A DNA stretch of 27,945 bases from Gemmatimonadota bacterium (GTDB lineage: Bacteria > GCA-2686955): contig NYZA01000144.1 in assembly GCA_002686955.1 (NCBI GenBank), positions 1-27,945 of the forward strand. Direction: 5' to 3'. The notes below the pieces were generated by a model. The model was not told the origin of the DNA and searched no databases. It was given only the letters and a program-made list of their open reading frames with translations. Below are positions 7,425-19,671 of this stretch, piece after piece. Both the position numbers and the translations under genes were made by a program. Position 1 is the stretch's first letter. Every line of letters begins with the position of its first letter.

Positions 7425-9308
7425 GTGCCAACTAGTTGTCCGCAGTCATTTTGCCGCTCGGCGACCCGTGCCCTCCTACTCTGGGCCGGCCTCCTTGGCG
7501 TCTCGGCCCCCGCCCCCGCCGCCCGAAGCGGGGAGGAGCGTCCTCTGGCCGTCCGATCGATCGATTTCGTGGGGAACGAAGAGGTATCTCGGGATCGCCT
7601 GCTCGGCGCCATGCGACTCGCCGAAGCGACCTTTCTGAAGCGTACAGCGGGATTGGAGAGGATCGAGTTCGATCCTCTCGCCTACCAGATCGACGTACGG
7701 GCAATCCGGTATTTCTACCAGCAGCAGGGGTTCATCCACGCCGACGTGAAGGGAGACCGTGCGGCGTTCGATTCCCTAGCCGGGGCGGTCGATCTGACGA
7801 TCCGTGTGACCGAAGGAAACCGGTATCGATTCGAGCGGGTTACGGTCGAGGGTGCGGCCAGGCTCGAGCCCGAGGTGCTCTGGAAGCGGATCGGCACGCG
7901 TCCCGGCGATCTCGCCAACCTGCATCAGGTCAAACGCGATGCGAATGCGATCCGAACCCTCTACCGCAATCGGGGCTATGTTCGCGCAACGGTCGAATTC
8001 GAGACGGCGATTCGGGAGGGGGACTGGACGGTCGACGTTCGCTTCGACGTAAGCGAGGGGGAGCCCCACACGATCGCGAAGGTGGTCACACGCGGCAATC
8101 TCGACACCCGGGACGAGATCGTACTTCGCGAGATGAGGATGAAACCGGGCAAGCTCTACAATCGGGAGACGATCCTGACTGACGAGCGAAATCTCTACAA
8201 CACCGGTCTATTCTCGGGCGTAAAGGTGAGCGAAACCGCTCTCGACTCGACGAAGAACACGGTGAATCTCCGTGTCGAGCTGATTGAACGCAGCCCGCGC
8301 TGGATCTCGTTCGCGGTCGGCTCCAGCACCGGCGAGCGGGAGAACGTTCGCCTCTCGGCCGATTGGGGGCACAAGAACCTCGCCGGCACCGCGCGGCTAG
8401 TCACGGTGCGTGCCGAGGCGACCTGGCAACTGAGTCGCTATTACGACGAGGGTCGCATCGATCCGCTCGCGAGCCGCTTCGAATTCGCCTATCTGCAACC
8501 CTGGATCTTCGGACATCGCCTCAGCGCCGGCGGAACCGCGTTTACCGCCCAGGAGATCCCGGTGGGGCGCGAGGACCGGCTCAGCACTTGGGGAATCGTC
8601 GGGCGCCTCTTGCGCCGAATCGGAACCGACACGGAGGTCTACCTGGAGGCGACGCTCCAATGGGCGAACGAGTCGGTCGAGGGACGGATCCTCGATCGCG
8701 ACATCAGCCAGACCAAGAGCGTTACTTTGGCGCATCGTCTCGATTCCCGCGCGAATGTCTTCGCTCCGACGTCGGGCACGGCGACCACGATTGCTCTGAC
8801 ACACGCCGGGGGGGTCCTCGGCGGTGATTTCGATTTCCGCCGTGCGACCGCGAGCTACGCTCGGTTCTTCGGCCTGGGGGAGGGCAGTGTCGCCGCTTTG
8901 AGGCTCTCCGGCGGGGCGGCGGCGCCCTTCGGCGAGAGCGAAGAGATCCCGATCGATCAGGTCTTCACCGCCGGTGGATCGAGCACGGTGCGCGGCTATC
9001 TCGAAGGGGGACTTGGTGCGCCTGGAACTCCGGAAGAGGGGGGACGGGTTCTGGCCCTAGTCAACCTCGAGCTCAGGCAACGACTCGTGGGGGATTTCGG
9101 TGTCGCCCCATTCATCGACGGCGCGCAGGTGTGGCCCTACCTGTCGGCGGTCGACGCGATCGGCGAGATGCGTTGGAGCATGGGGACCGAGCTTCGCTAC
9201 CAGACTCCGATCGGACCGCTCCGGGTGGGCTACGGCGTGAAGATGAACCCGGAGAGCGGCGATCCCGACCCGGGCTCATGGTTCTTCGGATTCGGACAGG
9301 TCTTCTGA
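7425..9308 (+). CDS. tamA: Omp85-family outer-membrane assembly protein, TamA-like
   Basis: An outer-membrane barrel with periplasmic POTRA domains that helps insert or export envelope proteins. 627 residues from GTG 7425. A signal peptide (ALLLWAGLLGVSAPAPAA) is followed by three POTRA-like repeats: around AVRSIDFVGNEEVSRDRL, YRFERVTVEGAARLEPEVL and HTIAKVVTRGNLDTRDEI. A C-terminal barrel of about 350 residues follows, with the strand-loop motif GSSTVRGY (the Omp85 VRGY/F loop 6) and a final aromatic residue (GFGQVF) as barrel signal. Three POTRAs and the TamB-like gene starting in its stop codon favour TamA over BamA, which usually has five POTRAs; but its place after rseP is the usual BamA place, so it could be the general assembly factor in this organism. 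Confidence 0.85.
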   Translation: MPTSCPQSFCRSATRALLLWAGLLGVSAPAPAARSGEERPLAVRSIDFVGNEEVSRDRLLGAMRLAEATFLKRTAGLERIEFDPLAYQIDVRAIRYFYQQQGFIHADVKGDRAAFDSLAGAVDLTIRVTEGNRYRFERVTVEGAARLEPEVLWKRIGTRPGDLANLHQVKRDANAIRTLYRNRGYVRATVEFETAIREGDWTVDVRFDVSEGEPHTIAKVVTRGNLDTRDEIVLREMRMKPGKLYNRETILTDERNLYNTGLFSGVKVSETALDSTKNTVNLRVELIERSPRWISFAVGSSTGERENVRLSADWGHKNLAGTARLVTVRAEATWQLSRYYDEGRIDPLASRFEFAYLQPWIFGHRLSAGGTAFTAQEIPVGREDRLSTWGIVGRLLRRIGTDTEVYLEATLQWANESVEGRILDRDISQTKSVTLAHRLDSRANVFAPTSGTATTIALTHAGGVLGGDFDFRRATASYARFFGLGEGSVAALRLSGGAAAPFGESEEIPIDQVFTAGGSSTVRGYLEGGLGAPGTPEEGGRVLALVNLELRQRLVGDFGVAPFIDGAQVWPYLSAVDAIGEMRWSMGTELRYQTPIGPLRVGYGVKMNPESGDPDPGSWFFGFGQVF

Positions 9309-12300
9309 TGGGGGGCCGCTCCAGGGGCAAAAGGCGCATGTGGTGGATCCTCGCTGCGATGGCGATCGCCGTCGTGTTGGTGAACAGGATCGGAGCCGGT
9401 TGGCCGGTGACACGCGCGCTGCTCAATCGAACGCTGCTGCAACCCAAGGGCTACGAGCTCGTTGGAGGTCGGGTGCGCTGGGCGCTGGTGCCACGAGTGC
9501 GAATCGATGGGAGCGATCTGCTATTGCGGGGCCCCGGCCTGGAGGTCGTCCTGCCTCGGGTTCACGCGGAGCTTTCGGGATTCGAGCTGCTCGCCGGTCG
9601 CCTCGGAGTATCCGATCTGCGCGCATCCCGGATCGAAGTCTCGCTCGCCGAAGGGGAAGGGGAGGGGGGCACGCCGGTTGTGCCCGATCCGCGTCTCGTC
9701 CGCATGGCACTGGAGCGCTTCAGATTCGATCGCATCGTCCTGGCTGATCTCTGCGCGTCGATCGGCGACGCAACGACGCTCGATCTGGCTCTGCTCAGGG
9801 GTGCGCTGACCGGCCGAGACGAAGGACCGACGCTGGTGATCGATACGCTGGCGGCCACGCTCGGTCTCAGCGAGCCTCTGGCTCTGAGGGCGGCCGGGAC
9901 TGAGATCGTGGCCCGGACCGACCGCTACAGCGCATCGAGGTTGGGTGCCTGGATCGGAGAGAGCCGGATCGAGGGGACCGGGAGCCTGCGGCCCGGAGAG
10001 GCGGGACCGATCTGGGAGGCGCGGCTCCATCTCGACGAGTTCTCTTTGCAGTCGATTCGACCCCTGATCGACGAGACGATCACCCGAGCAGAGAGCCGCG
10101 TGAACGGCCGGTTGCAGGTGCGCGGAGAAGCCGACACGATCCATTTCGCTGGTCGGGGTCGAGGCCATGTCGACCCGATCGTGTTCGACGCCGACACGGT
10201 TTCCGGCTGGTGGGACGGCCGCGAGATCGTGGTCTCGCGTATGGAAGGGGTCGTCGAGGGGATCGAAATCGTGGCGACCGAGGCCGCGATAGATCCCCGA
10301 ACGCAGGACTATCGCCTGAAGGGAAGGGCGTCCGGCGTCGCGATCGAGCCCTATTTGGACTTCATGGCGGGCACCGAATTGAACGGGCCCGTAGAGCTGC
10401 GGGGCTCGCATTTCGGGGGGGAGGAGCTCTGGCTCGATGTGCGCGCACCGAAGCTCCGGGGCCGCGTCTTCGACCTCGAGATGCCCGATGGAGCGTTGCA
10501 CCTTAGATATGCCCTCGGCCGCTACGATTTCGACGGCCTGCGTGTCGGCTTGGAAGGCGCCCGTGTCGATGCCACCGGCATGGTCGATCCGGACGAGGAT
10601 TCGATGCGCTGGGAGGGCCATCTTTCCCTCGATCCCGATGCCGCTTTTTTCGAGCGATTCGTCCCCGTGGAGGGGCTCCGGGGGGCACTCGAGGGTGATG
10701 GCAGGCTCAGCGGTCCATTGGAAACCCCTCGCCTGACGGCGACCTACGGCGGGCGCTCGATGGAGTACGGAGCGTTCGTGCTGGACAGCTTCGAAGGCGA
10801 AGTCGATCTCGATTCGGTCTTCCACCACCCGAGCGGACGGGCCGCGATCCGAGGCCAGGGCCTGCTGGGGGTGCTCCCGATCCGGATCGACGAGAGCGAG
10901 CTCGAGGTGGATGCGCGGGATCTCTATCTGGACCGACTGTTGATGCGGCAGGATCGCCGCGATATCCGCGCCACCGGTCCCCTCCGCATCGATGAGGGGA
11001 TCTCCGGTGAGCTGATCGAGTTGGCGCTCGACTCGCCGATGGGGGGGGCGGTCGCCCTGGACACGGTTCTCTTCCGTGCCGACTCGAGCGGCTTCCGGCT
11101 CGATCCGGTCGCTTTTCACTTGGGCGGGGGCAATCTCTCTCTCGAGGGCTTCTGGCGGGTCGCGGAGGGGCTCGACATAGATTTTTCGGTCGAAGAGATC
11201 GATCTGACCCGTTTGGCGCGACTGGGTGGCGCCGGCCACGATGCCGTCTCAGGGAGCTTGCGAGCCTCGGGGCGACTGGAAGGCACCTTCGAGAACCCGA
11301 AGGTGGAGGGAGAGTGGAGTATCGGAGAGCTCTCGATCGGAAGCGCGTATCTCGGCTCAGTCGAGGCGAAGGCCGGCCTCGACAACGGGCGGGTGCGCTT
11401 CGATCGCCTGCGCGCGGGCCACGGGGGATCGGCGATCCGCATCTCGGGCGAGTACCCGCTCGGTCCTCAGATCGGCTGGAACCCGGCGCCGGGACCCCTC
11501 GATGAGATCGATCTCTCGGTCGAGCTGCGGGAGTGGTCCCTCGCCGAGTTGGGCGCCCTCGTCGGCCTCGACTCCTTGGCGGGGCGTGTCGATGCGAGCG
11601 CGCGGCTATCGGGAACCCTGACTTCGCCCACCCTCTCGCTCTCATGCGACGCCGTGGAGCCGGCCGTGCTCGGAGACCGGTACGCCGACCTGACGATCGA
11701 GGCCGAATTCGACGCGGGCAAGCTCAACCTTGCGGCGAGAGACCGGGCGGGTTCCCAAGCACTCGGAACCCTTCCTTTCGTCTTCTGCCTGGCCCCGCTC
11801 TCCTTCGCGCCTTCGGACGAAGCCCTCGATGTCGAGCTCAGTCTCCGAGATTTCGACGCGGCTTTTCTTCGCCATCTCGTTCCGGACATCGAATCGGCCA
11901 GTGGCGCCCTGCGCTTCGACGGACACCTCGATGGCCATCTCCCCTGGCCGGATGCCCATGGTGAGCTTTCGGTGGACGGGGGACGGGTTCGGCTGATCTG
12001 GATGAATGCGCCGCTCCACTCGATCTCGGGCAGCGCGCGGGTCGACGGGCCGCGGACGATTCTCGATCGCGCGGAAGGGAAGATGGGCAGGACCGGACGC
12101 TTCACCGTCAGCGGCTCCCTCACAACGCGGGACTACGTGCCGATCGACTACGATCTGGGCGTGAAGGGGAAACGCCTGCCGATCGATTGGATCCCCGATC
12201 TCAGAGCCGAGGTGGATGCTGACCTGCGTTTCACGAGAAACGTACATATTTCCGGAGATGTGAGTGTTCACGAGGCGATCTACAGCCGAGCCTTCGGAGA

Positions 12301-13156
12301 GGAGCCTGAGCCGATCCCACCGCCGGCTCTGCCGGGAGAGGAGCTGCCATTCGTTCTGAGCTACGACCTTGCTCTGGTGGGTGATCGAAACCTCTGGCTC
12401 CGGAACAGCGAAGCCGATATGGAGCTGCGCGGCCGGCTCCACCTCGAGAGTCTGCTCGATTACGACGAGCTGCCGTTCACGATCCAGGGCGAGCTCGAAG
12501 TGATCCGGGGCACCTACACACTGCTCGGAAAGAACCGTTTCGAGATCGAGAGCGGCCGGATCGAGATGCCCGATCCGTCGATCCTGGATCCGGAGATGCA
12601 GGTCGAGGCGGGTGCGGTGCTGCGGGAGCGGGTTCGTGACGAGCAGGGGGGCTACCGTAGCGAGTCCCTCCCGGTCCATCTCTCCCTCGAAGGGAAGTTC
12701 TTCTCCGATCTGACTTACCAGTTCACCGATCTCTCCCAGGGACGAGCGCCGATCCCGATCGAAGACATGATCCTGCTGCTCACATTCGGCCGCCGGCGCG
12801 CGGCCGTCGATCAGGGAGGGCTCTACGACCAGACCAGCGCTGCGGCCGACGCCAGCGCCATCACCGCCCAGCTTCTCGAGAGCCGGGTGCGCGAGTTCCT
12901 CGACATCTCACTCGATATCAGCACCGGGCGGAGCTCTCCCCTCGAATCGCTCGACGAGACCTATGTCGGCCTGGGCAAATACTTGAACGACAAGCTCTTC
13001 GTCTACTACAGCCAGTACCTTTCCGCCGACCCGAGGCGGAAGCTCGGTGTCGAATACGCCTTCACCGATCATGTGCTCGTGGCCGGCGAGCTCGACGAGA
13101 CCGACCCGAACGCGCCCCGCTACAACGTCGACCTGCGCTACAGGTTGGAGTACTGA
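9308..13156 (+). CDS. tamB: TamB-like AsmA-superfamily envelope protein
   Basis: A 1282-residue protein anchored in the inner membrane by one N-terminal segment (MWWILAAMAIAVVLVNRI) and otherwise periplasmic. TamB-type proteins form a long beta-taco bridge to the outer membrane, work with TamA, and take part in phospholipid transport. The body is a monotonous series of amphipathic beta-strands typical of AsmA-like proteins. The last ~330 residues match the TamB C-terminal domain: a strand series around FTRNVHISGDVSVHEAIYSR and the end ESLDETYVGLGKYLNDKLFV ... LGVEYAFTDHVLVAGELD ... YRLEY. The ATG at 9308 shares one base with the tamA stop (TGATG). An upstream in-frame extension overlaps tamA and is rejected. 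The stop lies 7 bases before a palindromic repeat. Confidence 0.92.
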   Translation: MGGRSRGKRRMWWILAAMAIAVVLVNRIGAGWPVTRALLNRTLLQPKGYELVGGRVRWALVPRVRIDGSDLLLRGPGLEVVLPRVHAELSGFELLAGRLGVSDLRASRIEVSLAEGEGEGGTPVVPDPRLVRMALERFRFDRIVLADLCASIGDATTLDLALLRGALTGRDEGPTLVIDTLAATLGLSEPLALRAAGTEIVARTDRYSASRLGAWIGESRIEGTGSLRPGEAGPIWEARLHLDEFSLQSIRPLIDETITRAESRVNGRLQVRGEADTIHFAGRGRGHVDPIVFDADTVSGWWDGREIVVSRMEGVVEGIEIVATEAAIDPRTQDYRLKGRASGVAIEPYLDFMAGTELNGPVELRGSHFGGEELWLDVRAPKLRGRVFDLEMPDGALHLRYALGRYDFDGLRVGLEGARVDATGMVDPDEDSMRWEGHLSLDPDAAFFERFVPVEGLRGALEGDGRLSGPLETPRLTATYGGRSMEYGAFVLDSFEGEVDLDSVFHHPSGRAAIRGQGLLGVLPIRIDESELEVDARDLYLDRLLMRQDRRDIRATGPLRIDEGISGELIELALDSPMGGAVALDTVLFRADSSGFRLDPVAFHLGGGNLSLEGFWRVAEGLDIDFSVEEIDLTRLARLGGAGHDAVSGSLRASGRLEGTFENPKVEGEWSIGELSIGSAYLGSVEAKAGLDNGRVRFDRLRAGHGGSAIRISGEYPLGPQIGWNPAPGPLDEIDLSVELREWSLAELGALVGLDSLAGRVDASARLSGTLTSPTLSLSCDAVEPAVLGDRYADLTIEAEFDAGKLNLAARDRAGSQALGTLPFVFCLAPLSFAPSDEALDVELSLRDFDAAFLRHLVPDIESASGALRFDGHLDGHLPWPDAHGELSVDGGRVRLIWMNAPLHSISGSARVDGPRTILDRAEGKMGRTGRFTVSGSLTTRDYVPIDYDLGVKGKRLPIDWIPDLRAEVDADLRFTRNVHISGDVSVHEAIYSRAFGEEPEPIPPPALPGEELPFVLSYDLALVGDRNLWLRNSEADMELRGRLHLESLLDYDELPFTIQGELEVIRGTYTLLGKNRFEIESGRIEMPDPSILDPEMQVEAGAVLRERVRDEQGGYRSESLPVHLSLEGKFFSDLTYQFTDLSQGRAPIPIEDMILLLTFGRRRAAVDQGGLYDQTSAAADASAITAQLLESRVREFLDISLDISTGRSSPLESLDETYVGLGKYLNDKLFVYYSQYLSADPRRKLGVEYAFTDHVLVAGELDETDPNAPRYNVDLRYRLEY

Positions 13157-13320
13157 TGCGAAAGGGTTCGCGCAAGAATAACTTGTCATCTTGGCGCCCA
13201 GATGTGCCGCAGATCTGGCCGATCGGCGAGTCCCGAAACCGGAGGAATAGTCGGGCTATTTCGAGGCTTTCGGGACTCGCCGATCGGCCGGAGATGTGGT
13301 GCAGATGGGATGCCAAATGA
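13156..13320 (+). CDS. possible 54-residue ORF spanning repeat copy 1
   Basis: An open frame begins with ATG at 13156, overlapping the tamB stop as TGATG, and ends with TGA at 13318-13320 inside the right arm of the repeat. It starts MRKGSRKNNLSSWRPD and ends EMWCRWDAK, is basic and Trp/Arg-rich, and has no recognisable domain. Part of it (LADRPEM ... RWDA) is also readable in the repeat copy at 21406-21585 on the minus strand, but that reflects nucleotide similarity of the element. The perfect stop-start overlap is suggestive, yet open frames in GC-rich palindromes are common. It is more likely a by-product of the element than a real gene. Confidence 0.15.
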   Translation: MRKGSRKNNLSSWRPDVPQIWPIGESRNRRNSRAISRLSGLADRPEMWCRWDAK

Positions 13321-13342
13321 CAAGTTATTCTTGCGCGAACCC
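13164..13342. repeat. 179-bp palindromic repeat element, copy 1
   Basis: A nearly full-length imperfect palindrome between tamB and the histidine kinase gene. The outer arms 13164-13189 (begins GGGTTCGCGC, ends CTTGTCAT) and 13317-13342 are perfect 26-base inverted repeats. The inner arms 13217-13238 (GGCCGATCGG ... CCCGAAA) and 13268-13289 are perfect 22-base inverted repeats. The 27-base blocks between arms (13190-13216, 13290-13316) are partly complementary. The 29-base centre has a small hairpin (AATAG / CTATT). A second copy lies at 21406-21585 in the opposite orientation. The perfect arms fit a MITE-like or REP-like element, a structured RNA, or a bidirectional terminator. No transposase is visible in the window. 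Confidence 0.9.
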
Positions 13343-14564
13343 AAAGGGACGGCGGCGCTTCGGCCTCGATCTTCCCCGGCTCTCGTCGACGTTGCTCACC
13401 TTCTATGTTCTCGCGGGCGCCGTTCTCGCCTCCGCCGGAGCGTTCTACTACGTCCACGGCCTGATGGGGGCGCTGCGCGAGGACGCCCAGATCGTGAGCG
13501 AAGTCTACGGCCGTTTCTGCAGCATCGCCGGCGATCCGGATGGCGGTGCCGAGGCGCTCGATGTCATCTTCGACCACGTGATCCGCCGAATCGACTTCCC
13601 GGTGATCATCACCGATCGGGAAGGCGTGCCGCGTCACTGGGTCAACGTCGGACTTCCGCCCGACTCCGACGATTTGTCGGGTTTGCGGGCGATGGTGGAG
13701 GAGATGGACCTGGAAGCGGAACCGATCGACGTGCGCGTCGGGCGGGTGGGCCCACTGATCAGCCGGGTCCACTTCGCCGAATCGGATCGCATCTCCGATC
13801 TGCGGCGCGTGCCTTTGATCCTCGGGGGAGTGATCCTGCTCTTCGGCGGACTCGGATTGTGGATCATCTATCTGCTGAGGAAGCAAGAGCACCGCGCGGT
13901 CTGGGTCGGCATGGCTCGAGAGACCGCCCACCAGCTGGGCACGCCCCTTTCCGGCCTGGCCGGATGGGTGGAGCTGTTGGGGGACGGAACGATCACCGCG
14001 GCCGAGGCATCGAAGGAGATGGCGGTCGAGATCGGCCGCCTGGAGGCGGTGGCGGCTCGCTTCGGGCGGATCGGGTCGAGGCCGAGACTGGTCGCGGTCG
14101 ATCTTCGCTCCGTGGTGATCGATGTGCTGGAACGCTTCAGGACACGATCCGCTGCCCACGTCATCAGCTTCGAAGAGGAGCACGGTCCCGGCACGATCGT
14201 TCGCGGAGACGGCCAGCTTCTGGCCTGGGTCGTGGAGAATGTCGTGAGCAATGCCGTCGATGCCTGCCGAGCGACGGAAGAGGCGGGCACGATCTCGGTC
14301 TGGTGCGCCGCCGACATCAGTGGTCATTGGGTGCGCCTGACCGTGCGCGACAACGGCCGTGGCATGACGATGAACGAAGCCCGCCGCGCCTTCCGTCCCG
14401 GTCAGACGAGCAAAGAAACCGGGTGGGGGCTCGGCTTGGCTCTGGCGCGCCGGATCGTCGAGGACGATCATGGGGGACGGATCTTCATCGCCCGCAGCCG
14501 ACCCGGTGACGGAACCACCGTCGAGTTGCAGCTACCTCTCCACACCGAAAAGGCCGACCACTGA
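13317..14564 (+). CDS. membrane sensor histidine kinase (HQLGTPLS type)
   Basis: 415 residues from ATG 13317. Two membrane segments (about 24-46 and 165-186) bracket a periplasmic sensor of ~118 residues. The H-box is ETAHQLGTPLSGLAGW with the phosphorylated histidine at 205. The ATP-binding domain has the N-box VVENVVSNAVDA (Asn308 and Asn312), DNGRGM (345-350) and GWGLGLAL (369-376). There is no HAMP or PAS domain. Only 2 bases separate it from the PorX-like regulator, so the two are very likely partners. All in-frame starts (GTG 13296, ATG 13305, ATG 13317) fall inside the palindromic repeat; the N-terminus MTSYSCANP is translated from its right arm. The H-box differs from the THEFKTP type of Porphyromonas PorY, so I do not call it porY. 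Confidence 0.92.
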   Translation: MTSYSCANPKGRRRFGLDLPRLSSTLLTFYVLAGAVLASAGAFYYVHGLMGALREDAQIVSEVYGRFCSIAGDPDGGAEALDVIFDHVIRRIDFPVIITDREGVPRHWVNVGLPPDSDDLSGLRAMVEEMDLEAEPIDVRVGRVGPLISRVHFAESDRISDLRRVPLILGGVILLFGGLGLWIIYLLRKQEHRAVWVGMARETAHQLGTPLSGLAGWVELLGDGTITAAEASKEMAVEIGRLEAVAARFGRIGSRPRLVAVDLRSVVIDVLERFRTRSAAHVISFEEEHGPGTIVRGDGQLLAWVVENVVSNAVDACRATEEAGTISVWCAADISGHWVRLTVRDNGRGMTMNEARRAFRPGQTSKETGWGLGLALARRIVEDDHGGRIFIARSRPGDGTTVELQLPLHTEKADH

Positions 14565-14566
14565 CC

Positions 14567-16117
14567 ATGCCTCCCCCCGCGCAGATCCTCTGGGTAGACG
14601 ACGAGATCGAGAGCCTGCGCTCTCTGATCGTCTCGTTGGAATCGATGGGCCATCACGTCGAATCGGTTACGAACGGAGACGATGCGATCGCGCTAGTTCG
14701 GCGAGGGGGCATCGATCTCGTGCTGCTCGACGAGATGATGACCGGGCTCGACGGCGTCTCCACACTTCGAGCCGTGAGAGATCTCGACCCGACGATTCCG
14801 GTGGTCATGGTCACCAAGGTCGAAGAGGAGGAGCTGATGGACCGGGCCTACGAGGCACGGGCCGACGACATCCTGATCAAGCCGGTGCGTCCTTCGCAGG
14901 TTCGCGCGGTCGTGAAGAAGCTGCTCGATTCCGAGAGGATCGTCGGGGACGGCATCCGCCGCGACTACGGGCGTGAGATGGCGCGAGTGATGGGAGAGAT
15001 CTCGGGAGGACTCGACCCCGAGGGTTGGCTCAGGGTCGCCTGTTGGCTCTTCCGCCGCCAGATCGAGTTGGAGCGGCTGGGCGATGCAGCGCTGCTGGAC
15101 ACCCACGCCGATCTCCGGCGAGACGCGAATCGCTCCTTCTTCCGTTCGGTGAGCGCCGAGTACCGATCGTGGTTGGATGAGGCGGGACCTCTCCTCTCCC
15201 ATCGGATTCTCGATCGTGCCGTGGTCCCGATTCTCGGCGCGGGCGAGAAACTACTCTTCGTCGTTCTCGATTGCGTGCGGGCCGATCAGTGGATAGCGCT
15301 GGAGCCGCATCTGCGCGACGTCTTCGCGGTGGAGCCCGCCTACGGTTTCGCTCTTCTGCCCACAGCCACCCCCTTCGCCCGCAACGCAATCTTCGGGGGG
15401 GCGCTGCCCTCACAGATCCGACGAGACCACCCCGACCTGTGGGAGGACGACTTCAACTCCGTCGCCTCTCTGAACAGGCACGAGGAAGAGCTTCTGCGTT
15501 TGGCGATGAAGGCTCGCGGCTTCGGTGGGCTGAAGCTTCGCTATGAGCGCGTGGATGGCGGGGACATGGCCCACGATCTGGCTCAGCGCCTCTTGTCGTC
15601 CGCCGATATCGATCTCTACTCGGTCGTCTACGGGTTTCTGGATCTGCTGGCACACAAGAGCAGCGAGTCGGAGGTTCTTCAGGAGATCACGGCGACCGAG
15701 GCCGCCTATCGCGATCTGACGACGACCTGGTTCGCCCACTCGCCCCTGCAGGAGCTGCTCAGGGCCGCGGCCAGGACCGGGCGCACCGTCGTGCTCACTT
15801 CGGATCACGGCTCGGTGACGGTGCAGCGCGGAGCGAAGGTGGTGGGCGACCGCAAGACGTCGAAGGCGGTGCGCTACAAGGTGGGCCGCAATATCCACGC
15901 CGATCGAAGGCAGGCGCTCGACATCCGCGATCCGGAGGGCTGGGGTTTGCCCGCCACTTCGATCAACACCAACTACTTGATCGCGAGCGGGGATCATTTC
16001 TTCGTGTATCCGAATCAGCAGCGCGAGTACGAGCGACGACTCACCGGCACGCTTCAACACGGAGGGCTGAGCCTCGAAGAGATGGTGATCCCGATCGTGA
16101 CGCTGAGACCGAGGTGA
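14567..16117 (+). CDS. porX: PorX-like response regulator with PglZ domain
   Basis: 516 residues. The receiver domain (1-~122) has acidic pair Asp11-Asp12, phosphoacceptor Asp55 (LVLLDEMM), Thr83 and Lys105 (ILIKPV). An all-helical linker (~125-220) leads to a PglZ domain of the alkaline-phosphatase superfamily (~225-516). Candidate metal and catalytic residues are Asp235 (FVVLDCVRADQW), Thr266/Thr268 (LLPTATPFARNAIF), Asp359 and His363 (FLDLLAHKSS), Asp413-His414 (TSDHGS) and His498 in QHGGLSLEEMVIP. In Bacteroidetes PorX has this architecture, controls T9SS genes, and its PglZ domain has been reported as a zinc phosphodiesterase acting on oligonucleotides. The gene follows the kinase by 2 bases and its stop overlaps the tsaE start (GTGA). 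The symbol is by architecture; orthology is likely but not tested. Confidence 0.88.
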   Translation: MPPPAQILWVDDEIESLRSLIVSLESMGHHVESVTNGDDAIALVRRGGIDLVLLDEMMTGLDGVSTLRAVRDLDPTIPVVMVTKVEEEELMDRAYEARADDILIKPVRPSQVRAVVKKLLDSERIVGDGIRRDYGREMARVMGEISGGLDPEGWLRVACWLFRRQIELERLGDAALLDTHADLRRDANRSFFRSVSAEYRSWLDEAGPLLSHRILDRAVVPILGAGEKLLFVVLDCVRADQWIALEPHLRDVFAVEPAYGFALLPTATPFARNAIFGGALPSQIRRDHPDLWEDDFNSVASLNRHEEELLRLAMKARGFGGLKLRYERVDGGDMAHDLAQRLLSSADIDLYSVVYGFLDLLAHKSSESEVLQEITATEAAYRDLTTTWFAHSPLQELLRAAARTGRTVVLTSDHGSVTVQRGAKVVGDRKTSKAVRYKVGRNIHADRRQALDIRDPEGWGLPATSINTNYLIASGDHFFVYPNQQREYERRLTGTLQHGGLSLEEMVIPIVTLRPR

Positions 16118-16599
16118 AGGCCCTGGTCGCCGATTCGGTCGAGCGAATGCGCGCGCTCGGGGCGGCCTTGGGTCGTTCCGCCGAGGCGGGAGACGTCCTG
16201 CTGCTGCGGGGAGCGCTCGGTTCGGGCAAGACCGAGCTGGTGCGCGGTCTGGCGGGGGGCCTCGGCTGCGAAGCGCGGATTCGCTCTCCGACCTTCAATC
16301 TGATCCACCGGCTCGAGGGGGGGCGCCTGCTCCTCCACCATCTGGATCTCTACCGGATCCGCGACGCGCGCGAGCTCGAGCAGTTGGGGCTCGATGAAGC
16401 GATGGGCGAGGAGGGGGTGGCGGCCGTGGAGTGGAGCGAGCGGCTCCGCGAATTCGAGCCGACGGAGGCGCTCTGCTGCGATCTGTCGTTCGCTGGTGAC
16501 GCGGTCCGGGAGATCGCGTTCGCGCCGCGCGGTCTACGGGGCGCGGAGTGGGCCCGGCAGGCCTTTGGAGAGGAAGCGGATGTTGGTACTCGGGGTTGA
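16114..16599 (+). CDS. tsaE: tRNA threonylcarbamoyladenosine synthesis ATPase
   Basis: The ATPase subunit that works with TsaB and TsaD to make t6A37 in ANN-decoding tRNAs. 161 residues from GTG 16114, overlapping the regulator's stop. It has the P-loop GALGSGKT (33-40), the family SPTF (58-61), HLDLYRI (76-82) and EWSER (106-110). The C-terminus is somewhat longer than usual and Arg/Glu rich, and its last 20 bases overlap tsaB. A porX-like gene next to tsaE is, as I recall, also seen in Bacteroidetes genomes, so the linkage may be old. Confidence 0.93.
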   Translation: MKALVADSVERMRALGAALGRSAEAGDVLLLRGALGSGKTELVRGLAGGLGCEARIRSPTFNLIHRLEGGRLLLHHLDLYRIRDARELEQLGLDEAMGEEGVAAVEWSERLREFEPTEALCCDLSFAGDAVREIAFAPRGLRGAEWARQAFGEEADVGTRG

Positions 16600-17281
16600 A
16601 GCTTCCGGCGGAATCAGCGGAGCCGCCGTATCGATCGAGGGGCGGGGAATCAGCTCCGTCGAGCTCGCGGGTCGGGGGCGTCACGCGCGCAGCGTGAGCG
16701 ATGCCGTCGAGGCTCTGTTCGGCAGCCTCGATCTTTCACCCGCCGATGTGGAGCTGATAGCGGTCGGGCGAGGACCCGGCTCCTTCACCGGCTCGAGGGT
16801 CGCGATGGGCGTCGCGAAAGGTTTCGCCTTCGGTCAGGGGGCGCCGATCGTGGGTGTCTCCTCCTTGGCGGCGATGGCGGCGCCTGCGTGCATCGAGGGC
16901 TCGGTGATATTAGCGGCGAGCGATGCGAGGCGCGGCGAAATCTACGGCGCCCTCTATGCGCCCGATCCGACCGCGAGTCTGCCGCTTCCGCTCAGCGAAG
17001 AGGCCGCGATCCCTCTGTCGGAGCTCGGGCGCTGGCTCGCGAACCATCTGCCCCGTGATCTTCCCCTCACGATAGCGGGCAACGGTGCCGAGCGAACCGC
17101 CGGCGCCCTGCTCGCGCAGAGTGAATTCGAGGCGCCGGTCCATCTCGCCGCCCCGGAGGGACGAGTCTCCGCTTCTCCCGCTTCGGTCGCTCGCCTGGGA
17201 CTCGCGCGCTTTCTGGTCGACGGTCCCGATGATCCCGATGCTCTCGATCCGGTCTACATCCGTCCCGCAGTCGGCGGATGA
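16580..17281 (+). CDS. tsaB: tRNA threonylcarbamoyladenosine synthesis protein TsaB
   Basis: An ASKHA-fold partner of TsaD in t6A synthesis, without catalytic activity of its own. 233 residues from ATG 16580 (AGGAAG just upstream at 16571-16576), overlapping the end of tsaE by 20 bases. The N-terminal strand reads MLVLGVEASGG in place of the common LALDTS, and the TsaB hallmark GRGPGSFTGSRV is present at about residues 64-75. ASDARRGEIYGALY and the end DPVYIRPA are also typical. tsaD is not in the window. The rimI start overlaps its stop (ATGA). Confidence 0.92.
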   Translation: MLVLGVEASGGISGAAVSIEGRGISSVELAGRGRHARSVSDAVEALFGSLDLSPADVELIAVGRGPGSFTGSRVAMGVAKGFAFGQGAPIVGVSSLAAMAAPACIEGSVILAASDARRGEIYGALYAPDPTASLPLPLSEEAAIPLSELGRWLANHLPRDLPLTIAGNGAERTAGALLAQSEFEAPVHLAAPEGRVSASPASVARLGLARFLVDGPDDPDALDPVYIRPAVGG

Positions 17282-17751
17282 AGTCGATCCCGCCGATCAG
17301 GAAGGCGACTCGGGCCGATCTGCCGCTCCTGCTCGCCCTGGAGCGGGCGATCTTCCCCGATCCCTGGCCTCCTTCGATGTTCGAAGGGGAGATCGAGTGG
17401 GGTGGCGTGCTCGTCGCGGGGGGGGTCGAGACGGCCGAAATCGTTGGGTTCGTGGTGGCGGTCTTCGAGAGGAATCGGGTCCACATCGCCAATCTCGCCG
17501 TCGCGCGCGACCACAGGAGGCAAGGGTTGGGGCGACGCCTCCTCGACGAAGCGATCGACGCCGGGGGGTGCAAGGGCGCCCGGGCGGCCTGGCTCGAAGT
17601 ACGAGCCTCCAATGCCGCGGCCCGCGAGCTGTATACTGCTGCCGGCTTTCGGGAGATCGGACGGCGCACGGGCTACTACCGGCGCAGCCGACTCCTCGGC
17701 CGCGAGGATGCGGTGATCTATCGGCGGGATTTCGGCTCGCCGGAGGATTAG
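17278..17751 (+). CDS. rimI: ribosomal-protein-alanine N-acetyltransferase-like (GNAT)
   Basis: A GNAT acetyltransferase of 157 residues; RimI acetylates the N-terminal alanine of ribosomal protein S18. The acetyl-CoA loop is RRQGLGRRLLDEA, and the C-terminal signature EVRASNAAARELYTAAGF followed by RTGYYR is characteristic of RimI. The usual DPWP of RimI is visible as FPDPWPPSMF near the N-terminus. It overlaps tsaB (ATGA). The tsaE-tsaB-rimI order is common in bacteria. Residual uncertainty is only the natural substrate. Confidence 0.9.
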   Translation: MKSIPPIRKATRADLPLLLALERAIFPDPWPPSMFEGEIEWGGVLVAGGVETAEIVGFVVAVFERNRVHIANLAVARDHRRQGLGRRLLDEAIDAGGCKGARAAWLEVRASNAAARELYTAAGFREIGRRTGYYRRSRLLGREDAVIYRRDFGSPED

Positions 17752-17769
17752 AGGAACGAGGCTCGGAGA

Positions 17770-19671
17770 ATGCGAGGAATCGAGCGCTGGACCGGCGCCA
17801 CTCTGGCGGTTCTTGCGGCGACGATGCCGGCACGGGGCGCAGCCCCTGCCCGCGGGATCGACGGCACCCACGTCATCGAGCGGGCGATGGGGGGGCGCGG
17901 CGCGATCGCCGATATCCTCGACGAGTGGCGACGCAGCCCGGCCGTAGAGCGTCTCGAGGCGGGGCGATGCACCGATGGTGCAGACACGCTCCAGTCCCAG
18001 TCCTTCAATATCTTCGACCTGAGCGACTTCAACGATCTCGGTGGTGTGGATATCGATTGCACCCTCGTGCGGAAGACCGAGCACGCCTTCATCTACGTGG
18101 AGACATCTCTCTGGGGCGGGGCTCTGATCGACGATTCGGTCATCGATTCCTTCGTCGAGCTCTTCGAATCCTCGACGCCGGCGGTCGCCGATCCGCCCCA
18201 TGTGCTGGCCTCCGTCGATCCCTCCGCCGGCATCTTCGACATTCTCGAAACCGAGCTGCGCCCTCTGCCCGACTCGAACGATCCCCGCGATGTGGACGGT
18301 CTTGATCGCATCTATGTCGTGTTCGTCGACATACCGGACAGCTACAGGCGCGCGGGCGACGTAGCGGTCAACGGGTACTTCTCGTCGGTCAACGAGCTCT
18401 GCGATGCCGAGTTCAAGGCCAACTACGGCGCCTACGTGGCCAAAGGGCTGGGAACGAACGAAAAAGAGATGCTGGTGCTCGACATCGATCCTTCTCTCGG
18501 CACCGGATTCCTCGACATCGTGCGGGGAGTCCCCGCCCACGAGCTGCAACACCTGCTTCATTGGTTCGCCGACGAGCGGGAATCGACCTGGCTCGACGAA
18601 GGGATCGCCGATCTGTCCGCCGAGCTCGTCGGCTTTCCGCCGGTGGGACACTACGACGCCTTCCTGGACGATCACGACGCGAGCTCTCTCGCGCTCTGGG
18701 AGCAGGAGCAGAGGGACTACGGCCACGCCTCCCTTTTCATGCGCTATCTGGCGGACCATCCGCCGGCCGAGGCGGCGGTGCGGTGGGGCAACATGGAAGC
18801 GGTCCGCAAGGTCATGGCGTCGACCGATACCTCCGTCGCGGGAATCGTCGATGGCCTGAATGACGCGGGAGATCCGCGCGACATGCTGGAGCTCTACCTC
18901 GATTTCTCCGCCGCCATGCTGCTCCGAGATCCCGATTTCGAAGAGGGAAAGTACGGGATGCCTGCCGGGGGACCGACGCTCGATCCTCGCGCCAACTCCT
19001 TCACCGACGCCGTGCTCACCGGAATCGGCCAGACCATCGATCCGACTCTGGACGATCAGGTCACCAGCCTCACCGCGCGATTCGTGCAGCTCGAGAGCTT
19101 TTTCGCCGACTCCATCTATGTGAAAGTCACCGGACCCGCCTCGCTCGCCGCCCGCGCGATTCTCGGCTTCGACGCAGCCGGCGCCGACCCGCTGGATCTC
19201 GATCCGGTGGCCGTGCTCGATCTGGAGACGGTCGCGGTCGAGGGGGGCGATTATGTACGAGAGGTCCTCCTGGAGGAGATCGGCGGTGCCGCCGACCGAG
19301 TGCTCGTCGTGACGAGCCAGATCGATCCGGCGCGTCCCGGCGCCGGCGTGGCCGACTATACGGTGACGGTGGCCGGAGACGCCTCGGAGCCGGGGAGCTG
19401 TCTTTCGCTGCTGCGCGTCGGTCCGAATCCGGTCGATTTCTCCGATGGAGGCTCGGTCGAGGTGTCGTTCTTTGGCGATGCTCCGGGGCCACACTGTGCG
19501 CGGATCGCGCTGTACGATGCGGCCGGCCGGTCAGTGCGCCGTCTCGATGCTCCCCCTTTCCAATGGGACGGCACCAACGATTCCGGCCGTGGAGTCGCCG
19601 GCGGCATCTATTTCTGGGTCGCATCGGGGGACGATGAGATTCGGCGCGGCACACTCGCGCTCATCAGATGA
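17770..19671 (+). CDS. secreted HExxH metallopeptidase with T9SS/FlgD-like C-terminal domain
   Basis: 633 residues from ATG 17770. A signal peptide (about 1-23, GATLAVLAATMPARGA) leads to a mature region with AHELQHLLHW (256-265) and, 12 residues later, WLDEGIADLSAEL. HExxH plus a downstream glutamate (277) is the gluzincin zinc-site pattern, most like M30/hyicolysin-type peptidases. The last ~90 residues form a separate beta domain: LLRVGPNPVDF, ALYDAAGRSVRRLD, WDGTNDSGRGVAGGIYFW and the end RRGTLALIR. This is the FlgD-Ig / type A sorting-domain pattern that routes proteins through T9SS in Bacteroidetes. It starts 18 bases after rimI, so it may share the transcript with the PorX-like regulator. 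Substrate unknown. Confidence 0.85.
   Translation: MRGIERWTGATLAVLAATMPARGAAPARGIDGTHVIERAMGGRGAIADILDEWRRSPAVERLEAGRCTDGADTLQSQSFNIFDLSDFNDLGGVDIDCTLVRKTEHAFIYVETSLWGGALIDDSVIDSFVELFESSTPAVADPPHVLASVDPSAGIFDILETELRPLPDSNDPRDVDGLDRIYVVFVDIPDSYRRAGDVAVNGYFSSVNELCDAEFKANYGAYVAKGLGTNEKEMLVLDIDPSLGTGFLDIVRGVPAHELQHLLHWFADERESTWLDEGIADLSAELVGFPPVGHYDAFLDDHDASSLALWEQEQRDYGHASLFMRYLADHPPAEAAVRWGNMEAVRKVMASTDTSVAGIVDGLNDAGDPRDMLELYLDFSAAMLLRDPDFEEGKYGMPAGGPTLDPRANSFTDAVLTGIGQTIDPTLDDQVTSLTARFVQLESFFADSIYVKVTGPASLAARAILGFDAAGADPLDLDPVAVLDLETVAVEGGDYVREVLLEEIGGAADRVLVVTSQIDPARPGAGVADYTVTVAGDASEPGSCLSLLRVGPNPVDFSDGGSVEVSFFGDAPGPHCARIALYDAAGRSVRRLDAPPFQWDGTNDSGRGVAGGIYFWVASGDDEIRRGTLALIR

Follow-up and report, generated by a model that had tools for sequence, protein, structure and literature searches.

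A coupled porY-porX gene pair in a Gemmatimonadota bacterium and its predicted role in type IX secretion without a detectable motor

Genes at the locus

The window analyzed here is a stretch of 27,945 nucleotides (positions 1 to 27,945 of contig NYZA01000144.1) from a Gemmatimonadota bacterium, whose metagenome-assembled genome (MAG; G000) comprises 4.28 Mb and is 84.5% complete. It carries a sensor histidine kinase gene directly followed by a gene for PorX, the response regulator associated with the type IX secretion system (T9SS), and this gene pair is the subject of the present analysis. An initial sequence-only reading had placed the kinase, PorX, tsaE, tsaB, and rimI genes and a gene for a secreted peptidase in this order, and the arrangement is as it stated:

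13317-14564, forward strand: PorY-orthologous sensor histidine kinase, 415 amino acids from an ATG start; an alternative GTG start is at 13296
14567-16117, forward strand: PorX, with a REC domain, a helical linker, and a PglZ domain of alkaline-phosphatase fold, a predicted phosphodiesterase
16114-16599, forward strand: tsaE, overlapping the porX stop
16580-17281, forward strand: tsaB
17278-17751, forward strand: rimI-like N-acetyltransferase
17770-19671, forward strand: predicted secreted HExxH metallopeptidase, with HELQHLLHW at residue 257 and a signal-peptide-like N-terminus
19396-19668, forward strand: putative divergent T9SS type-A-like C-terminal sorting domain of the peptidase, VGPNP...ALYDAAGRSVRRL...WDGTNDSGRGVAGGIYFW

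The kinase stop at 14564 and the PorX start at 14567 are separated by 2 nucleotides. Overlaps then follow in series (porX/tsaE, tsaE/tsaB, and tsaB/rimI), and the metallopeptidase gene comes next. The phylum of the window is represented by two genomes, that of the window and a sister genome of the same family. PorX is present in both, and the order kinase-PorX-tsaE-tsaB is repeated in the sister.

PorX and the adjacent kinase

Judged by its sequence, the gene at 14567-16117 encodes a true full-length PorX. The product scores 533.6 bits against the NCBIfam model T9SS_RR_PorX (cut-off 300) over model positions 2-513 of 513, with the REC and PglZ domains at 80 and 51 bits. The top phmmer matches in the PDB are the full-length PorX proteins of Porphyromonas gingivalis and Flavobacterium johnsoniae (7pv7 and 8ted), which have the same REC-linker-PglZ architecture. 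The window PorX is ~36-37% identical to the PorX proteins of these two species and ~37% identical to the crystallized P. gingivalis PorX. All three proteins share the phospho-acceptor D55, the putative metal ligands D235, D359, H363, D413, H414, and H498, and the catalytic T268, which corresponds to the Thr carrying a mutation in the crystal structures. The position of the switch residue Tyr101 in F. johnsoniae PorX, in contrast, is occupied by Ile102 in the window.

A PorX alignment used to scan GTDB genomes gave at least 80 loci. Among the matches listed, PorX occurs in KSB1, Calditrichota, Gemmatimonadota, Latescibacterota, Zixiibacteriota, Fidelibacterota, Cloacimonadota, LCP-89, Ignavibacteriota, Rhodothermota, Balneolota, and Bacteroidota. 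The protein is thus spread over at least ten phyla of the Fibrobacteres-Chlorobi-Bacteroidetes (FCB) group, and the view that PorX belongs mainly to Bacteroidetes has to be given up. In a tree of 90 PorX sequences, the window PorX groups with those of Bacteroidota and other FCB lineages, which, together with the model score, bears out the earlier suggestion of a PorX-type regulator. Within FCB the tree broadly tracks the organisms. The window PorX sits on a long branch among the non-Bacteroidota lineages, and its placement inside that group is moderately supported. One PorX locus (L058), from a record titled Streptomyces griseus MAG, is nested within Chitinophagaceae and very likely comes from a mislabelled or contaminated bin.

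The adjacent kinase, previously proposed as a natural partner of PorX, is by sequence comparison an orthologue of PorY, which goes beyond merely plausible partnership. Its HATPase_c domain scores 82 bits, HisKA is sub-threshold, and no curated PorY model is among the matches listed for it. Hydropathy suggests transmembrane (TM) helices at residues ~22-41 and 164-190, enclosing a periplasmic loop of ~120 amino acids, and no HAMP domain. The predicted phospho-acceptor is His205 in GMARETAHQLGTPLSGL, and the G-box reads GWGLGL. For comparison, published PorY has 395 amino acids, TM helices at 14-36 and 149-173, and His193 (PMC5005315). When 25 PorX genomes were searched for the window kinase, one match was found in 21 besides the window's own (22/25; E 1e-42 to 1e-174), and the next-best kinases were no better than ~E 1e-19. 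The exceptions are a 1.4-Mb partial genome, a Paludibacteraceae MAG, and LCP-89, the last being a 23rd genome with a truncated match to the kinase core only (212.7 bits).

The family so defined carries the signature W.G.A.E.AHQ.GTP...GW in addition to GWGLGL. Most members have two TM helices, ~115-120 periplasmic residues, no HAMP domain, and the His ~20 residues past TM2; PorY itself (PGN_2001), with a loop of ~115 residues, shares this layout, and His193 recurs exactly in several members. Forty family kinases form one clade (support 100/99) when set against eight paralogue rows. A Porphyromonas-like genome (G103), with its genus taken from a PorX that is 79% identical to that of P. gingivalis, has by profile exactly one family kinase (381 bits, 398 amino acids, His197), in which 201 residues follow the His, as against 202 in PorY. 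Moreover, among Bacteroidales, the kinase is present in 14/15 PorX-positive genomes vs 5/14 PorX-negative ones (Fisher p = 0.0017, uncorrected for relatedness). The five PorX-negative genomes (G063, G066, G086, G088, and G099) keep the PorY orthologue with no PorX match at E <= 1e-100, and either incomplete assemblies or true loss of PorX would account for this. PorX and kinase distances correlate (Spearman 0.72, 30 genomes), a value that is not used as proof because shared ancestry alone yields it. A search of the PDB by sequence found no PorY structure.

Some orthologues differ from PorY in the sensor part. In Latescibacterota, Cloacimonadota, and some other lineages the periplasmic domain is larger; five such proteins, L156 (G002), L162 (G003), L166 (G004), L161 (G018), and L163 (G017), have ~200-250 residues there compared with ~115. 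As the kinase core is unchanged, the larger domains suggest different input signals.

Gene coupling and type IX components

The kinase gene lies directly before porX, on the same strand and with a gap of < 90 nucleotides, at 11 loci, that is, nine named loci and both genomes of the window's family. The lineages concerned are the window's family, Latescibacterota, Zixibacteria, one Gemmatimonadetes MAG, and others. At the other porX loci, including all recognised Bacteroidota, no kinase was found <= 10 kb upstream, three loci being too short upstream to tell. In P. gingivalis the two genes are ~1000 genes apart. In the PorX tree, all 11 adjacent loci fall together in a single region, which they share with non-adjacent Cloacimonadota. 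Two histories are compatible with this unrooted tree: a single joining of the kinase gene and porX in that region, or separation of an ancestral operon in the other lineages. In the open-access papers searched, we found no porYX operon outside Bacteroidota. The best reading of 13317-16117 is that it constitutes a porY-porX operon, an ordinary gene pair unlike the scattered Porphyromonas genes. Directly 5′ of the kinase, a gene for a large TamB-domain protein occupies 9131-13156 (137 bits), and in the sister genome the end of TamB likewise precedes the kinase (L002:2-244).

On its other side, porX is followed by tsaE in the window, unlike the characterized porX genes. Across the loci examined, tsaE is within 400 bp of porX in 50/72, whatever cargo or other gene comes next. 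The order porX-tsaE(-tsaB-rimI), at 16114-17751 in the window, thus appears as a widespread old FCB gene order, one that links a T9SS regulator to synthesis of the tRNA modification N6-threonylcarbamoyladenosine (t6A).

The downstream peptidase is plausibly an exported protein with a divergent sorting domain. The FlgD/T9SS-like domain assigned to it by the sequence-only reading matches a model that was built from sorting domains encoded in the window genome and the sister genome (23.5 bits, E 6e-7), for which it is the sole match among 254 reading frames of the window. Of the general models, FlgD_ig gave 22 bits (cut-off 27), and the curated sorting model TIGR04183 was sub-threshold. CHU_C matched at E 0.008, and the C-terminus of PorZ at E 2e-4. 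With the C-terminal 114 residues, phmmer found no match in the PDB, and AlphaFold run without an alignment gave a predicted local distance difference test (pLDDT) score of 49, which is not used for any claim. A peptidase match was seen in one other locus only, where it is weak (43 bits) and upstream. Since porX-tsaE is conserved whatever follows, the position of the peptidase does not speak for a functional link, contrary to what had been read from its nearness, and that nearness looks incidental.

Evidence for T9SS-type export comes from the genomes, in which the gene families were searched one by one. The T9SS parts covered were SprA, PorV, the sorting domains, and PorK/L/M/N. SprA is above cut-off in 25/25 PorX genomes vs 0/14 controls, and PorV-family proteins are likewise present in 25/25. 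In the genome of the window, SprA lies at G000:C17:38438-42898 (522.7 bits joined, cut-off 200), and the PorV family has ten matches, the best at 195 bits (cut-off 90). In addition, there are 30 matches to C-terminal T9SS sorting domains, ~26 of them above cut-off; all 14 that were examined have their last residue directly before the stop codon, and most contain NPFNP...SGVY...K. With SprA, PorV-family proteins, and this set of sorting domains encoded, a T9SS-type export route in this organism is likely.

The motor components form the other half of the picture. GldK/PorK, GldL/PorL, GldM/PorM, and GldN/PorN are above cut-off in only three of the 25 PorX genomes, all core Bacteroidota; with Bacteroidota-trained models, PorK, PorL, PorM, and PorN, including the PorX target PorL, were undetected in 22/22 genomes outside that core. 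The window genome gave no match to GldM, GldN, or GldL (GldL at E <= 0.1), this being the result of a Bacteroidota-trained model applied to an incomplete MAG. GldK matches of up to 78 bits in the same genome were rejected as PorK: they align mostly to the C-terminal formylglycine-enzyme part, and controls have such matches too. Of the T9SS genes named in the sequence-only reading, SprA and PorV were found and PorK/L/M/N were not. An earlier survey described Bacteroidetes 'incertae sedis' that keep Sov, PorV, PorX, and PorY and lack PorK/L/M/N (PMC7323717), and SprA has been described as FCB-specific and missing from one FCB phylum alone (PMC12611786). The present genomes agree with both descriptions, enlarge the range of motor-less lineages to many phyla, and show the operonic arrangement in addition.

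Directly 3′ of sprA (L126:8062-14175, on contig C17 of the window genome) is a glutaminyl-cyclase-like M28 gene (L126:7073-8038), with the glutamine cyclotransferases 6qql, 7cje, and 6qro as best PDB matches. The two genes adjoin in 8/17 SprA loci from several phyla. Some Bacteroidota have T9SS cargo with N-terminal pyroglutamate, and the adjacency may therefore be a functional link.

What the pair may control

We propose, with a probability of roughly 0.8, that the porY-porX operon encodes a two-component system controlling a motor-less T9SS composed of SprA, PorV, and tagged cargo. The membrane kinase PorY would sense an envelope signal via its periplasmic loop, autophosphorylate His205, and then phosphorylate PorX at Asp55. 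Phospho-PorX would dimerize, as it does in Bacteroidota, and would act by the phosphodiesterase activity of its PglZ domain, by contacts with other proteins, or by both. In this way it could tune the export, by SprA and PorV-family proteins, of C-terminally tagged cargo and possibly of the neighboring peptidase. In P. gingivalis, PorY transphosphorylates PorX (PMC4800418), and given the orthology this transfer should hold here. In F. johnsoniae, phospho-PorX binds GldL (PMC10951265), a step that cannot be assumed where PorL is undetected. Control of surface secretion, as first suggested, cannot therefore be taken to run through PorL. The rotary motor is undetectable in the lineage of the window and in the other deep FCB lineages tested, which argues that the ancestral PorYX output was probably not PorL and instead gene expression, nucleotide signaling, or a different energizer.

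Several points weigh against this proposal. Deletion of porY in P. gingivalis, unlike deletion of porX, leaves T9SS function (PMC11320123), and the mild effect suggests that PorX may have other inputs. The known binding partner of PorX, PorL, was not detected, and the window genome is a MAG with 84.5% completeness. Moreover, PorY was identified by way of G103, with a genus inferred from PorX identity, and not from the PGN_2001 sequence itself.

A rather unlikely alternative is that kinase and PorX are a genuine pair controlling a process other than T9SS here, such as envelope biogenesis or nucleotide signaling. The T9SS link would then be a later Bacteroidota specialization and the co-occurrence with SprA a matter of shared FCB ancestry. 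The 22 non-core genomes with no detectable PorKLMN, the tsaE/tsaB/rimI genes rather than T9SS genes next to porX, and an unrelated NtrBC-like pair near SprA in the window genome would all fit. Against it, none of the PorX genomes tested lacks SprA or PorV, and it was their co-occurrence with T9SS genes that first revealed PorX and PorY (PMC10951265). An ordinary, complete T9SS is also unlikely, a little more so; PorKLMN would have to be too diverged for the models or encoded in a part of the genome that the assembly lacks. SprA at ~520 bits here vs > 2000 in core Bacteroidota, and the short matches to GldL (13-18 bits) in three deep FCB genomes, point in that direction. The 22 negative genomes, however, include a single-contig Latescibacteria genome and a Rhodothermales genome whose SprA reaches 1863 bits, and the 'incertae sedis' survey cited above found the same set of genes.

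It is very improbable that the kinase is a generic histidine kinase other than PorY, adjacent to porX by coincidence: its HisKA domain is below the Pfam cut-off and curated PorY models are missing from its listed matches, but the single-orthologue profile across FCB, the monophyly, and the 11 adjacent loci argue otherwise. A BREX- or Pgl-type defence protein, which would have the PglZ domain in common, can be dismissed by score, as the BREX-3 PglZ model gives 74.3 bits (cut-off 250) compared with 534 for PorX (the tree holds PorX sequences), the REC domain is fused, and no BREX genes are among the neighbors scanned. The two outcomes that the sequence-only reading gave as refuting it, a genome free of T9SS core genes and a grouping of the regulator with unrelated proteins such as BREX PglZ, did not occur.

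Beyond control of motor-less export by PorYX in the window, a wider scenario can be offered tentatively. PorYX would be an ancestral FCB two-component system older than the rotary T9SS motor, controlling motor-less SprA export in at least ten phyla through an output other than PorL; in Bacteroidota, the operon would later have been broken up and the GldKLMN motor gained as a second target.

PorX and PorY have been called orphans, and which kinase serves PorX is not settled: recent work suggests kinases other than PorY (PMC11320123), and for F. johnsoniae it is reported that nothing is known (PMC10951265). That the kinase occurs as a near-universal single orthologue, with its gene next to porX in several phyla, speaks for PorY as the long-standing dedicated partner of PorX; the family also points to an F. 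johnsoniae orthologue of PorY. Collectively, the occurrence of PorYX with SprA, PorV, and cargo and no detectable motor makes it testable whether the motor is the primary output of PorX and what energizes SprA outside core Bacteroidota.

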